From NCBI GenBank assembly GCA_947462765.1, contig CANHQK010000005.1, positions 1 through 64,000 on the forward strand: a stretch of DNA of 64,000 nucleotides, given 5' to 3'. Positions 43,614 through 48,826 of the stretch are shown piece after piece. The stretch's first letter is position 1, and each line of letters starts with the position of its first letter. The notes beneath the pieces were generated by a model. The model was given only the letters and a program-made list of their open reading frames with translations, was not told the origin of the DNA and ran no database searches. The translations under genes and the position numbers were made by a program. Source of the DNA: Bdellovibrionales bacterium. GTDB lineage: Bacteria > Bdellovibrionota > UBA1018 > CAIMNF01.

Positions 43614-45524
43614 ATGGCAACCATCGGTGATTCTACAAAAAAATCCAATTCCATGCTCATGCTTCTCGGCGCACTCGGCGTCGTGTTTGGAGACATCGGA
43701 ACCAGCCCGCTCTACACCATTCAAGAATGTGTGAACCCGGTTCACGGAATTCCTGCCTCAGTTGAGGCGAATCTGATGGGATTGATGTCGCTCATCTTTT
43801 GGGCCCTGATGATGGTGATCACGATCAAGTACGTGGTCTTTGTGATGCGAGCGGATAACCGGGGCGAGGGCGGATCCATGGCTCTGCTCGCCCTGCTTCC
43901 TGAATCAGTGAAAATGCGAGCCCCCGGGAAAGTGGGTTTCACTGCAATTCTAGTGATTATCGCCGCTTCCTTGCTGTTCGGTGACGGCGTGATCACACCG
44001 GCGATCTCGGTCCTATCCGCCGTCGAGGGATTGAAGCTGATCTCCCCTACTTTCGAACCTTATGTGGTTCCTCTGACCGTCTCGATCCTGGTCGGCTTGT
44101 TCTACTTCCAGAAAAACGGAACCGAAAAAATTGGGAATGCATTCGGCCCCATCATGATGGTCTGGTTCCTCTGCCTCGGTGCCTTGGGAATCATGCACCT
44201 GTTCGATGCGCCGCGCATTCTTCGAGCCGTTTCTCCGGGATACGCGATCGAATTTTTGCGGGATAACGGGCTTCATTCTTTCAGGACTCTCGGGTCAGTC
44301 GTACTTGCGGTGACCGGGGGGGAGGCATTGTACGGAGACATGGGCCATTTTGGAAGAGTCCCGATCCGTAAAGCCTGGCTGTTCATTGTTTTTCCCTGTC
44401 TCTTGCTCAACTATTTCGGCCAAGCCGCTTTTCTGATCGCTCATCCCGAATCGGCCAACAATCCCTTTTACGAGATGGTTCCGAACTCTCTGCTCTATCC
44501 CATGGTCATTTTGGCGACCCTGGCGACGGTCATCGCGTCCCAGGCTATGATCACGGGCGCTTTTTCACTGACTTCCCAGGCCATCCGTCTCGGATATTTT
44601 CCCAGGCTCACGGTCAAACACACATCCGAACATGGCGAGGGACAAATCTATGTTCCTTTTATTAATCTGGTTCTCGCAGTTCTTTGTATTGCCCTGGTGG
44701 TCATTTTCCAGGCTTCCACAAAGCTTGCAGCCGCATACGGACTGGCGGTGACAGGAACGATGACGATCACTTCGATTGTGTTCTTTCAGGTCACCCGCCA
44801 CAAGTGGAAGTGGAACCCGCTTTATTCGTGGCTTTTTCTAGCGGTGTTTCTGACCATTGACCTTCACTTCTTGACGGCGACCGCATTCAAGTTTTTTGAT
44901 GGCGGGTGGATTCCTGTTTTCATCGGCATTTTCTTCTTCCTCGTCATGTGGCTCTGGAGGGTTGGAAGGAGCCTCCTCGCGCGTCACTTCATGCGAAGCG
45001 CCGAGCCGCTCGATGCATTCTTGGACAATCTCGAAAAAGAAGTCCCCTACCGCATTCCGGGCATCGGTGTGTTCCTCGCCTCCGATCCGAACGGCGTCCC
45101 CCCCGTGGTGCTCCGGATGGTGAGGCGCTTCCATACGCTCCACGCCAACATCCTCTTGCTCACGGTCACCTCCGAGACAGTTCCCTACTTTTGCAGGGGC
45201 GGTAAATGCGAGGATGACCGAGTCGAGGTGCAAACCCTGGGTAAAGGATTTCATCGGGTGCTCGTCCGCTACGGTTACATGGAGATGCCGGACATTCCAT
45301 CGATCATGGAAAAGGCGCTCCTCAAGCTCGAGATGAATGCCAATCTGAAAGAACTGGTCTATGTACTCGGACACGAGACCTTCGTCGAGCAGGAGAGCGG
45401 CGAGATGAATCGCTTCCAACAGGGGATCTTCTCGTTCCTGTCCCGCAATGCGCGAAATGCGACCGACTACTTCAAGCTCCCGCCGGACCAGGTGATCGAG
45501 CTCGGGACACACATCGACCTTTGA
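43614..45524 (+). CDS. kup: Low-affinity potassium transporter Kup
   Basis: LMLLGALGVVFGDIGTSPLYTIQECV; ADNRGEGGSMALLAL; ALYGDMGHFGR; SQAMITGAFSLTSQAIRLGYFPRL. The ORF track starts at TTG 43587. Confidence 0.96.
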   Translation: MATIGDSTKKSNSMLMLLGALGVVFGDIGTSPLYTIQECVNPVHGIPASVEANLMGLMSLIFWALMMVITIKYVVFVMRADNRGEGGSMALLALLPESVKMRAPGKVGFTAILVIIAASLLFGDGVITPAISVLSAVEGLKLISPTFEPYVVPLTVSILVGLFYFQKNGTEKIGNAFGPIMMVWFLCLGALGIMHLFDAPRILRAVSPGYAIEFLRDNGLHSFRTLGSVVLAVTGGEALYGDMGHFGRVPIRKAWLFIVFPCLLLNYFGQAAFLIAHPESANNPFYEMVPNSLLYPMVILATLATVIASQAMITGAFSLTSQAIRLGYFPRLTVKHTSEHGEGQIYVPFINLVLAVLCIALVVIFQASTKLAAAYGLAVTGTMTITSIVFFQVTRHKWKWNPLYSWLFLAVFLTIDLHFLTATAFKFFDGGWIPVFIGIFFFLVMWLWRVGRSLLARHFMRSAEPLDAFLDNLEKEVPYRIPGIGVFLASDPNGVPPVVLRMVRRFHTLHANILLLTVTSETVPYFCRGGKCEDDRVEVQTLGKGFHRVLVRYGYMEMPDIPSIMEKALLKLEMNANLKELVYVLGHETFVEQESGEMNRFQQGIFSFLSRNARNATDYFKLPPDQVIELGTHIDL

Positions 45525-46809
45525 TCCAAGAAGAGGCAACCAGAGTGTCGAAGGCGCTCCGGCGTCGCACACCGGCATGGAGGCGTTCGAGGATTTCCTC
45601 GGCGTTCCGTCCGGCAAGCACGCGATCCGACACCGGTACCACCATGAAATTGGCTTCCTTACTGGCCTTGAAATTCCCGGTGATCCGATCGAGTCCGAGA
45701 ATCGCAGCTCCAGCCAGAGTCGCACGGAACAGGGCCTTCACGCGGGTCGCGCCCTTCACGTCTGCTTTCCGGTTCTGACGGACAAAACTTTCCATCACAT
45801 CGAACATCGACAGGAATGGACCTCCTCCGATGTCGGAGCCGAGCGCCCAGCGCACGCCTGCTTTTTCCGTGCGGCGGAAGTCGAACAGTCCCGAGCCCAG
45901 TCCGAGATCTTTGACCGGAGCATTCGAGGTCGGACAGTGAGCGATTGCAGTGCGGGTGCGCGCTAAAAGACGAAGTTCGGCCGCAGACAGATGAATCCCG
46001 TGGCCCATGATCGAGCGGGGCCCGAGCATTCCGGCCTTTTGATAGATCTCGGTGTAGGTCCTGACCTTCTCAAAACCAGGTATTTTCCGGTATTGCGACA
46101 GCACGAACTCGATCTCTCCGGGAGTCTCCGACAAATGAGTCTGCTTGAAAGCCCGAGCTGTATCGGCCAGCCGGGCCCCCTCTTTCATCACCTTCGGAGT
46201 CGTGGTGATGGCAAAACGGGGAGTCAGGGCATAGCGGGTGCCGTATTGTTTCAGGAGTTTCCGGACCAGCCGGAGCGACTCTTCTTCCCCCACCGTGAGT
46301 TCGGGGGGCGACTCCATGTTCATGAGCACGTTTCCGATCACAAAATGCCCCTTCACTTCACGGAAGGCGCTCCGGATCGCGGTTTCATGGATCGAGCTGT
46401 AGATGGCTCCCCCTTGGGTTCCGGAGCCGCGAAGCTTCAAGAAAAACTCTTTCGCGCGCTTCCGTGAGTATGCGGGGTCGGCAAAGCGCATCTCTGTGGG
46501 AAAAGTGTACTTTTTGAGCCAGGTCAAAAGGGAGGCCTTTGGCATCACACGGACCTCATCCTGTACCCAATGGAAATGGAGGTCAAAGAAGCCGGGGATC
46601 AGCAGGGCCGAGCCATGGTCGATCACCGCTCTGCCTCCGAAGACCTTGCCATATCGGGCCCGTGCCCCCGCCAAATCATGGATCCCGTGGATTTTTCCGG
46701 TTCGGGCATCCACCGCCAAGACTCCCTCCCGGACCAGCTCACATTCGAGGTCGGAGAGCGGATTCAAGAGGGTCCCCAGATGAAAACGAAGCAAGGGCTT
46801 TTTGGTCAT
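45472..46809 (-). CDS. Guanine deaminase-like amidohydrolase
   Basis: LLIPGFFDLHFHWVQ; LLTWLKKYTFPTEMRFADPAYSRKRAKEFFLKLRGSGTQGGAIYSSIHETA; QTHLSETPGEIEFV; GHGIHLSAAELRLLARTRTAIAHCPTSN; ALGSDIGGG. Confidence 0.88.
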   Translation of the reverse strand: MTKKPLLRFHLGTLLNPLSDLECELVREGVLAVDARTGKIHGIHDLAGARARYGKVFGGRAVIDHGSALLIPGFFDLHFHWVQDEVRVMPKASLLTWLKKYTFPTEMRFADPAYSRKRAKEFFLKLRGSGTQGGAIYSSIHETAIRSAFREVKGHFVIGNVLMNMESPPELTVGEEESLRLVRKLLKQYGTRYALTPRFAITTTPKVMKEGARLADTARAFKQTHLSETPGEIEFVLSQYRKIPGFEKVRTYTEIYQKAGMLGPRSIMGHGIHLSAAELRLLARTRTAIAHCPTSNAPVKDLGLGSGLFDFRRTEKAGVRWALGSDIGGGPFLSMFDVMESFVRQNRKADVKGATRVKALFRATLAGAAILGLDRITGNFKASKEANFMVVPVSDRVLAGRNAEEILERLHAGVRRRSAFDTLVASSWIKGRCVSRARSPGPAGA

Positions 46810-46884: not shown

Positions 46885-48495
46885 GTGAATCAGGATCTTT
46901 TTGAATGGCTCCTCCTGCTGGGGCGTTGGGTGCACATCACCGTCGGCATCACCTGGATCGGGACCTCGATCTTTTTCATGTGGCTCGACCGGAGTTTTGT
47001 CCGGAATCCGGAGGCCCAGCACGAAGGCCATGTCGGGGAACTCTGGATGGTCCACGGAGGTGGCTTTTACCACGTTGAAAAGCTCCTGATGGGACCCACC
47101 AAAGTTCCGAAGGATCTCCATTGGTTCAAATGGGAGTCGTACTGGACCTGGATGTCCGGGATCTTTCTCCTGGCGATGATTTTTTACGCCGGGTCGGGAA
47201 CTTTTTTGCTCGATTCCTCAGTCTCCAAGATCACCTACGGTCAGGCGATCGCCCTTTCGATCGGCTCCCTCGTCGGATCCTGGTTCTTTTATGATTTTCT
47301 GTGGGAGTCCTCACTCACCAAGAAAAGCCCGATCACCGGGCACATCCTGACCCTCCTTTGGTTCGGGGGAATGGTTTACCTCCTCTGTCATACCCTTTCG
47401 GGTCGGGCCGCTTACATCCACATCGGGGGCATGGTCGGGACCTGGATGACGGCGAATGTCTTCCTCAGGATCATTCCCCGTCAGGTCAAGATGGTCGAGG
47501 CCTCGAAGCGAGGTGAACCGGTGAACCAGGAGTGGGGAAAGAATGCCAAAAACCGTTCGACCCACAACACCTACCTCACCCTACCCGTAATCTTCATCAT
47601 GCTTTCGAATCACTTTCCGAACACCTACGGAAACCCCTACAATTGGCAAATTCTGATTGCCATCAGTGCGGCAGGCGCCGCCATCCGTGAGTTCTTCGTG
47701 GTCCGCCTGTCGAATCCCGCCAGATCCAAGCTCTTCGGAGCCATCGGGGCTATTCTGATTCTGGCGGTGATGTTTCTGACCCGCGAAAACACCGGATACA
47801 CGGAATCGACGCCGCCTCCCGCTCCAGCTGCAACGGTGTCTGCCACCGCTACGCCTGCAGGCCCGGTCGGCAGCATTCGGGGCGTGATCTCGCTCGAGGG
47901 GTTGGCTCCTGAGCCAGAGAAGCTCTCTCTTCCGGCGGTCTGCAATCCGAAGAATAAACCCGTCATTTATTCCAATGACATCCAGATCGAAAACGGAAAG
48001 ATCAAGAACGTCCTCGTCCGGGTGATTTCCGGACAAGAAGGAAAACCGATCCCTCCGGCTCCGACCACTCCCGTAATCCTCGATCAGGTGGATTGCCAGT
48101 ACGAGCCCCGGGTGATTGCGGTCCGGGTCGGACAAGCGGTGGATTTTCTCAATAGCGATCCGACCTTTCACAATGTGAAGTCCCGGAGCAAGTCGAACGA
48201 GAACTTCAATGTGGCCATGCCAAATAAAGGGGATAAAGTCACGAAGGTCTTCACCAAACCGGAAATCGTCATCGAGTCGGAGTGCAGCGTTCACCCGTGG
48301 ATGAGTGCCTCCATTGCGGTGATGGACCACCCCTGGTTCGCGATCAGTGATGCCTCGGGATCCTACTCGATAGGCGGCTTGCCACCCGGAAAATACAAGA
48401 TCGAAGCCTGGCATGAGGTGTTCGGCTCGAAAACTCTCGAAGTCACCATCAGCGAAGGGAAAGAGGCAGTGGCCGATTTCTCATTCAAGAAATGA
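46885..48495 (+). CDS. puuD: PuuD-type membrane urate hydroxylase/oxidase fused to a C-terminal cupredoxin-like domain
   Basis: GTG start with SD aaggggaa. N-term DLFEWLLLLGRWVHITVGITWIGTSIFFMWLDRSF...GELWMVHGGGFYHVEKLLMGP and multiple TMs (urate oxidase N-terminal family). C-term FHNVKS...ECSVHPWM copper-site-like motifs; no CxxCH in the tail. Confidence 0.85.
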   Translation: MNQDLFEWLLLLGRWVHITVGITWIGTSIFFMWLDRSFVRNPEAQHEGHVGELWMVHGGGFYHVEKLLMGPTKVPKDLHWFKWESYWTWMSGIFLLAMIFYAGSGTFLLDSSVSKITYGQAIALSIGSLVGSWFFYDFLWESSLTKKSPITGHILTLLWFGGMVYLLCHTLSGRAAYIHIGGMVGTWMTANVFLRIIPRQVKMVEASKRGEPVNQEWGKNAKNRSTHNTYLTLPVIFIMLSNHFPNTYGNPYNWQILIAISAAGAAIREFFVVRLSNPARSKLFGAIGAILILAVMFLTRENTGYTESTPPPAPAATVSATATPAGPVGSIRGVISLEGLAPEPEKLSLPAVCNPKNKPVIYSNDIQIENGKIKNVLVRVISGQEGKPIPPAPTTPVILDQVDCQYEPRVIAVRVGQAVDFLNSDPTFHNVKSRSKSNENFNVAMPNKGDKVTKVFTKPEIVIESECSVHPWMSASIAVMDHPWFAISDASGSYSIGGLPPGKYKIEAWHEVFGSKTLEVTISEGKEAVADFSFKK

Positions 48496-48502
48496 GACGG
48501 AC

Positions 48503-48826
48503 ATGATCAGCACCCACATTCTCGACACCAGCAAAGGATTTCCCGCAAGCGGCGTGAAGGTCCATCTCGACACGATTCAGAACGGAAACTGGGCTCTTCT
48601 TGCGTCAGGTGAGACCAACTCAGACGGAAGATTCGTATTCGATGTTCCCTACCTGGCAGGTCAGTACCGGATCCGATTCGGAATCGAAGACCACTACTCC
48701 CGTTCCGGCCTGAAGCCGTTTTTCCTCGATGTCCCCGTTGCATTCGAAATCACGGATACTTCGAGAAAATACCACATCCCCCTGCTCCTGAACCCCTACG
48801 GGTATTCCACCTACCGAGGATCCTGA
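48503..48826 (+). CDS. 5-hydroxyisourate hydrolase (transthyretin-like)
   Basis: ISTHILDTSKGFPASGVKVHLD...HYHIPLLL-like KYHIPLLLNPYGYSTYRGS with the C-terminal YRGS signature. The ORF track starts at 48413. Confidence 0.95.
   Translation: MISTHILDTSKGFPASGVKVHLDTIQNGNWALLASGETNSDGRFVFDVPYLAGQYRIRFGIEDHYSRSGLKPFFLDVPVAFEITDTSRKYHIPLLLNPYGYSTYRGS

Follow-up and report, generated by a model that had tools for sequence, protein, structure and literature searches.

The closest described system is the urate oxidase PuuD of Agrobacterium fabrum (COG3748, DUF989/PF06181; PMC4562309), whose C-terminal tail is a cytochrome c. The defining paper describes the CXXCH motif as strictly conserved in all PuuD proteins (PMC4562309). 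For this haem form, a part of the tail in electron transfer was deduced rather than shown directly, and superoxide scavenging was raised as an alternative role of the cytochrome c (PMC4562309). Here we describe a window of 64,000 nucleotides from a Bdellovibrionales bacterium (contig CANHQK010000005.1, positions 1 to 64,000), in which a PuuD membrane domain is followed by a predicted cupredoxin.

Domain organization of the PuuD variant

The gene and its parts are located as follows:

46885..48495, + strand: whole gene, starting at GTG and encoding 536 aa; predicted urate oxidase of the PuuD type with a cupredoxin tail
46897..47775, + strand: Urate_ox_N (DUF989) membrane domain, aa 5-297, with 8 predicted helices (PF06181, E 2.6e-106; 3.7e-107 on DNA; helices in the model)
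47791..47853, + strand: disordered Pro/Ala-rich linker, aa 303-323 (pLDDT < 50; highly variable in the alignment)
47869..48327, + strand: predicted cupredoxin part of the tail, ~aa 329-481 (profile matches and Foldseek)
48310..48483, + strand: CarboxypepD_reg-like (transthyretin-like) segment, aa 476-533 (PF13620, E 4.2e-9)

The GTG start coincides with the start in relatives, which open with V/MNQ. The match to PF06181 is essentially complete (profile positions 3-292 of 295), in agreement with the original prediction, which had read the N-terminal ~300 residues as the PuuD/urate-oxidase-N membrane domain. Residues H17, H57, H79, H227, H243, R14, and W24 of this domain are invariant in copper-tailed, tailless and haem-tailed forms alike. 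The original prediction had also reported that CxxCH is absent, and translation of the whole 46885-48495 frame revealed none. Moreover, the Pro/Ala linker that it placed before the tail corresponds to the low-confidence stretch of the model, and its carboxypeptidase-regulatory-like segment was recovered as the CarboxypepD_reg match at the end of the tail, which comprises 208 residues after the linker. The product possesses the membrane domain, the invariant residues and the association with urate genes of a PuuD urate oxidase and lacks the CXXCH cytochrome c. Judged by its sequence it is a variant PuuD-domain urate oxidase, with predicted urate oxidation activity, and not a cytochrome c urate oxidase. 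A short DUF989 paralogue of 231 aa (L002:1228-1923, contig C6) is present in the same genome and widespread in the order; it resembles the short 4-helix DUF989 form mentioned previously (PMC4562309).

Charge distribution in the alignment of the fusions was used to orient the protein in the membrane. The four predicted cytoplasmic loops hold a mean of ~14.6 Lys and Arg, and the N terminus with the three outer loops ~0.7. By the positive-inside rule, the tail is therefore placed outside the cytoplasm, and the charges of the copper-tailed forms agree with the N-out/C-out topology of haem-form PuuD (PMC4562309).

The tail is a predicted amicyanin-like cupredoxin

The elements of the tail considered below are:

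47941..48096, + strand: stretch bounded by the invariant residues Cys353 (47941-47943) and Cys404 (48094-48096), from the alignment
48169..48171, + strand: His429, first predicted type-1 copper ligand, followed by the likewise invariant Asn430
48283..48303, + strand: predicted ligand loop CSVHPWM with Cys467, His470, and Met473

The blue-copper reading had been proposed from two motifs, FHNVKS and ECSVHPWM, and both are present (aa 428-433 and 466-473, respectively), giving H429...C467-x2-H470-x2-M473. The single sequence matched Copper-bind weakly (E 0.039 with the whole protein; 0.005 with the tail alone), and a single-sequence search of the PDB gave a match at 3.6e-4 to 5fc9, a blue copper protein. 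A profile built from 20 fused tails matched both 5fc9 (5.5e-7) and amicyanin (3.4e-6). In the profile alignment, H429 falls on the His of the amicyanin HNV motif and C467, H470, and M473 on its C-x2-H-x2-M; the four proposed ligands are accordingly in amicyanin register. The full-length AlphaFold model had a mean pLDDT of 84 (tail mostly 83-96, linker below 50). The tail modeled alone reached 93.8 and was almost entirely beta, a high-confidence cupredoxin prediction for which Foldseek returned NirK, a purple cupredoxin, amicyanin, and plastocyanin from the PDB, with TM-scores by target of ~0.7-0.8 for the small cupredoxins.

Among 20 complete fusions, which come from Bdellovibrionota, Acidobacteriota, Myxococcota, and Planctomycetota and share 40-71% identity with the window protein, the four ligands (His429, Cys467, His470, and Met473) do not vary. 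They are intact in 42 of the 43 distinct fused tails; the one exception is a tail truncated where the match ends. Because of this conservation the motifs are more than a chance resemblance. The Asn that follows the first His supports the Cys ligand in known cupredoxins. A CuA site of the COX2 type was rejected, since it needs two Cys (C-x3-C-x3-H) and CSVHPWM has amicyanin length with one Cys only. Cys353 and Cys404 may form a disulphide; such a bond would be consistent with a tail outside the cytoplasm. The tail was also considered as a CarboxypepD_reg domain split by insertion of the cupredoxin: joining the first strand of the tail to its last part clearly raised the Pfam score only for the Acidobacteria locus L047 and slightly for the Planctomycetota locus L054; the window protein and L035 gained nothing. 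The tail combines the predicted beta-sandwich with the His...Cys-x2-His-xn-Met set of a type-1 cupredoxin in register. These data support an amicyanin-like cupredoxin with a predicted type-1 copper site, and from ligands and fold the site would be occupied by copper. At the computational level the original prediction held, for the predicted fold as for the register of the ligands.

The gene lies in a purine degradation locus

The neighboring genes encode the following proteins:

45472..46809, - strand: divergent guanine-deaminase-like amidohydrolase (TIGR02967, 276 bits, below the cut-off)
48503..48826, + strand: 5-hydroxyisourate (HIU) hydrolase, the next pathway step, directly downstream (TIGR02962, 121 bits, over the cut-off)
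48826..53550, + strand: four-domain protein of 1574 aa with malate synthase, OHCU decarboxylase (UraD), serine beta-lactamase-like, and allantoicase domains
53513..58232, - strand: XdhC and the large and small subunits of xanthine dehydrogenase, the urate-forming enzyme

Genes for MoeA and MoaA are also found in the neighborhood. Counterparts of the four-domain protein are encoded at L032-L038, L040-L045, and L048. In almost every Bdellovibrionota copper-PuuD locus that extends far enough, a frame of 1413-1613 aa with the SLSK motif follows directly downstream. Two loci that fall outside the main Bdellovibrionota clade, L047 and L051, have HIUase, UraD, and allantoicase nearby as individual genes. 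The beta-lactamase-like domain of the four-domain protein keeps SLSK and YSG and is placed between the allantoin-making and allantoate-using domains. In the genome of the window (91% complete), no protein exceeds the TIGR03178 cut-off for allantoinase, and TIGR03212 gives no match. The beta-lactamase-like domain may be a new allantoinase. This genome also encodes one COX1-family oxidase with COX3 and COX4-cytochrome c subunits, near SCO1 and a gene for ActD of alternative complex III.

Copper and haem tails alternate among PuuD proteins

For the survey of PuuD tails suggested with the original prediction, the fusion alignment was used to scan a set with one genome for each species, and the best 80 loci were taken. 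The copper tail recurs among them as an alternative to cytochrome c: 20 loci carry copper tails and 56 carry CxxCH tails, three are tailless and one is frameshifted. One of the copper-tail loci, L046, ends before the ligand loop at a contig end. The carriers are mostly Bdellovibrionota, together with an Acidobacteria metagenome-assembled genome (MAG, L047), Labilithrix MAGs (L050 and L052), and a Planctomycetota MAG (L054). L033, a MAG labeled Lysobacteraceae, has a membrane domain identical to one from a genome of the window's own order and is probably mislabeled. The tail profile was found in 69 of 293 genomes of the window's phylum, in ~50 of them as part of a long frame together with the PuuD domain. 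No viral carriers of the fusion were found. Genome G272 has a haem PuuD (464 aa, CTTCH) together with a copper-tailed one. Its haem PuuD is divergently arranged from a serine beta-lactamase-like gene with the kind of domain seen in the four-domain protein (L170:1-570, - strand, and 858-2252, + strand).

In the membrane-domain tree the copper label needs five changes, at least four of them forced by well-supported branches, and L051 is placed inside a haem clade (support 97/90). Grouping every non-haem PuuD into one clade was rejected on the membrane domain (p-AU 0.0036), and hence the tails have been exchanged repeatedly. The tree of the tail alone is not resolved at its base and is compatible with one origin of fused tails. 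Haem and copper tails thus appear, from these trees, to have been swapped repeatedly, with a count and direction that the base of the tail tree leaves loose and with caution due to the long branches of L054, L051, and L047. Loss of cytochrome c maturation was ruled out as the reason for the swap, because a Cytochrom_C_asm protein is retained in the genome of the window and in the copper-tailed relatives searched.

Tailless forms are found at two places within the copper clade of the membrane-domain tree (L053; L048 and L049), and the tail was therefore probably lost twice. Tailless PuuDs are ~302-313 aa long (L048:2076-3008, L049:3416-4348, L053:983-1915, L188:1760-2668, L189:1795-2736), and those of L048 and L049 are still within the same purine operon. 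A tail copy acting in trans was also considered: seven genomes of the phylum with PuuD frames of 305-339 aa are not among the tail-profile matches, and this profile finds nothing anywhere in them.

Stand-alone homologues of the tail

Small, secreted-looking cupredoxin/CarboxypepD_reg proteins are encoded at L152:3924-4613, L153:3878-4627, L154:3933-4625, L156:2779-3480, and L166:3904-4557. The first four are homologous to the tail over its whole length and share a CDVHGWM loop; unlike the fusion, they have their own N-terminal signal-like sequence and no membrane domain. We know of no characterized member of this stand-alone family. In other Bdellovibrionota the stand-alone homologues adjoin ctaA, at L153 also a UbiA-family (ctaB-like) gene, and in several cases NAD synthase. 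The ctaA/ctaB neighbors point to a respiratory-carrier origin of the tail. Secreted cupredoxins beside such oxidase-assembly genes are flagged by this finding as likely respiratory carriers, those beside ctaA likely being uncharacterized copper carriers. The stand-alone homologues of phylum family f17 (L159, L160, L161, and L162) match the tail profile, but at least one copper ligand is lost in them (NCHM, FCHM, HNHM, and FDHI).

Proposed role of the copper tail

The protein is probably a urate oxidase of the PuuD type in which an amicyanin-like type-1 copper cupredoxin, in place of cytochrome c, serves as the C-terminal electron-accepting domain, and we infer the copper, its redox role, the direction of the electrons, and their partner. 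By homology and genomic context, urate would be oxidized by the 8-helix membrane domain on the cytoplasmic side, in line with the proposal made for the haem form. The electrons would then reach the copper centre in the tethered periplasmic tail, as the position of the replaced cytochrome c, the topology, and the kin of the tail suggest, and continue to the respiratory chain, most likely by a cytochrome c/aa3-type oxidase path. With electron exit to the periplasm, no hydrogen peroxide would be made in the cytoplasm. Exit through the tail is proposed because the tail occupies the position of cytochrome c and the tails were exchanged repeatedly. From replacement, topology, and kin, delivery of urate electrons by the copper tail to the periplasmic respiratory chain is the most likely function. 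The existence of tailless PuuDs speaks against an obligatory tail, since not every lineage needs one.

Other explanations of the tail have to be weighed against this one. It might be a real copper cupredoxin with no catalytic electron role, serving in copper storage or sensing or in scavenging of superoxide formed at the membrane domain. Scavenging was raised for the haem tail (PMC4562309) and PuuDs do occur without any tail; however, two unrelated one-electron carrier domains exchanged at one place argue for a shared role in electron transfer, and the loop, of amicyanin type, matches that of an electron carrier, which makes a non-electron role unlikely. We consider very unlikely that the cupredoxin fold is copper-free and structural, or a docking domain for a partner, with electrons leaving by a separate carrier. 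Some distant stand-alone homologues have indeed lost one or more ligands and tailless PuuDs demonstrate that the core can exist alone, but a structural domain would have no need of the four ligands, every one of which persists in the fused tails across four phyla. Finally, the carriers are mostly metagenome-assembled genomes, and the fusion could be suspected as an artefact of assembly or gene prediction. Its recurrence as a single open frame in ~50 genomes of the phylum and in four phyla, with ligands and gene order conserved, refutes this suspicion, to which we give practically no weight.

Electron exit through a type-1 copper tail remains the preferred reading. A more general one, which we hold at about even chances, is that the PuuD membrane domain with its own redox centre is a general urate-oxidizing module whose electron exits (cytochrome c, type-1 copper, or none, with a free partner) were exchanged several times across phyla. 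If this is true, urate becomes an electron donor to respiration via haem or copper. The recurrent natural replacement by copper in the place of cytochrome c offers comparative evidence for the tail as electron exit, and the copper tail provides a haem-free, spectroscopically clean tail for testing this exit.

Comparison with known systems

Relative to described haem-tailed PuuD, the copper-tailed form would be a new variant on sequence grounds. No work on a PuuD with cupredoxin architecture was found in the open-access literature searched, and a mention elsewhere may have gone unnoticed. The PuuD of A. fabrum shares with the window protein the 8-helix domain, the invariant residues, the linker-plus-tail layout, the predicted topology, and the pathway neighbors. 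It differs in the tail, which is a CXXCH cytochrome c there and here a predicted cupredoxin with an H/C/H/M set and a CarboxypepD_reg-like end. With amicyanin (1aac, 1sfd) and the Nitrosopumilus cupredoxin 5fc9 the tail has in common the predicted fold, the His/Cys-x2-His-x2-Met register, and the HN motif, at ~20-26% identity. In contrast to these proteins, it is tethered to a membrane enzyme and has an extra N-terminal part with the Cys pair and a transthyretin-like end.

Copper nitrite reductases are known with a tethered cytochrome c (Ralstonia pickettii) or azurin (Hyphomicrobium denitrificans) (PMC9358711), and subunit II of some nitric oxide reductases contains a cupredoxin in place of haem c (PMC8756737). 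As in PuuD, the electron partner of one and the same catalytic core may be a haem c or a cupredoxin. However, the cores of these reductases are unrelated soluble or haem-copper ones, and the partner delivers electrons there whereas in PuuD it is expected to remove them. The PuuD core, too, can apparently be linked with respiration through different electron carriers.
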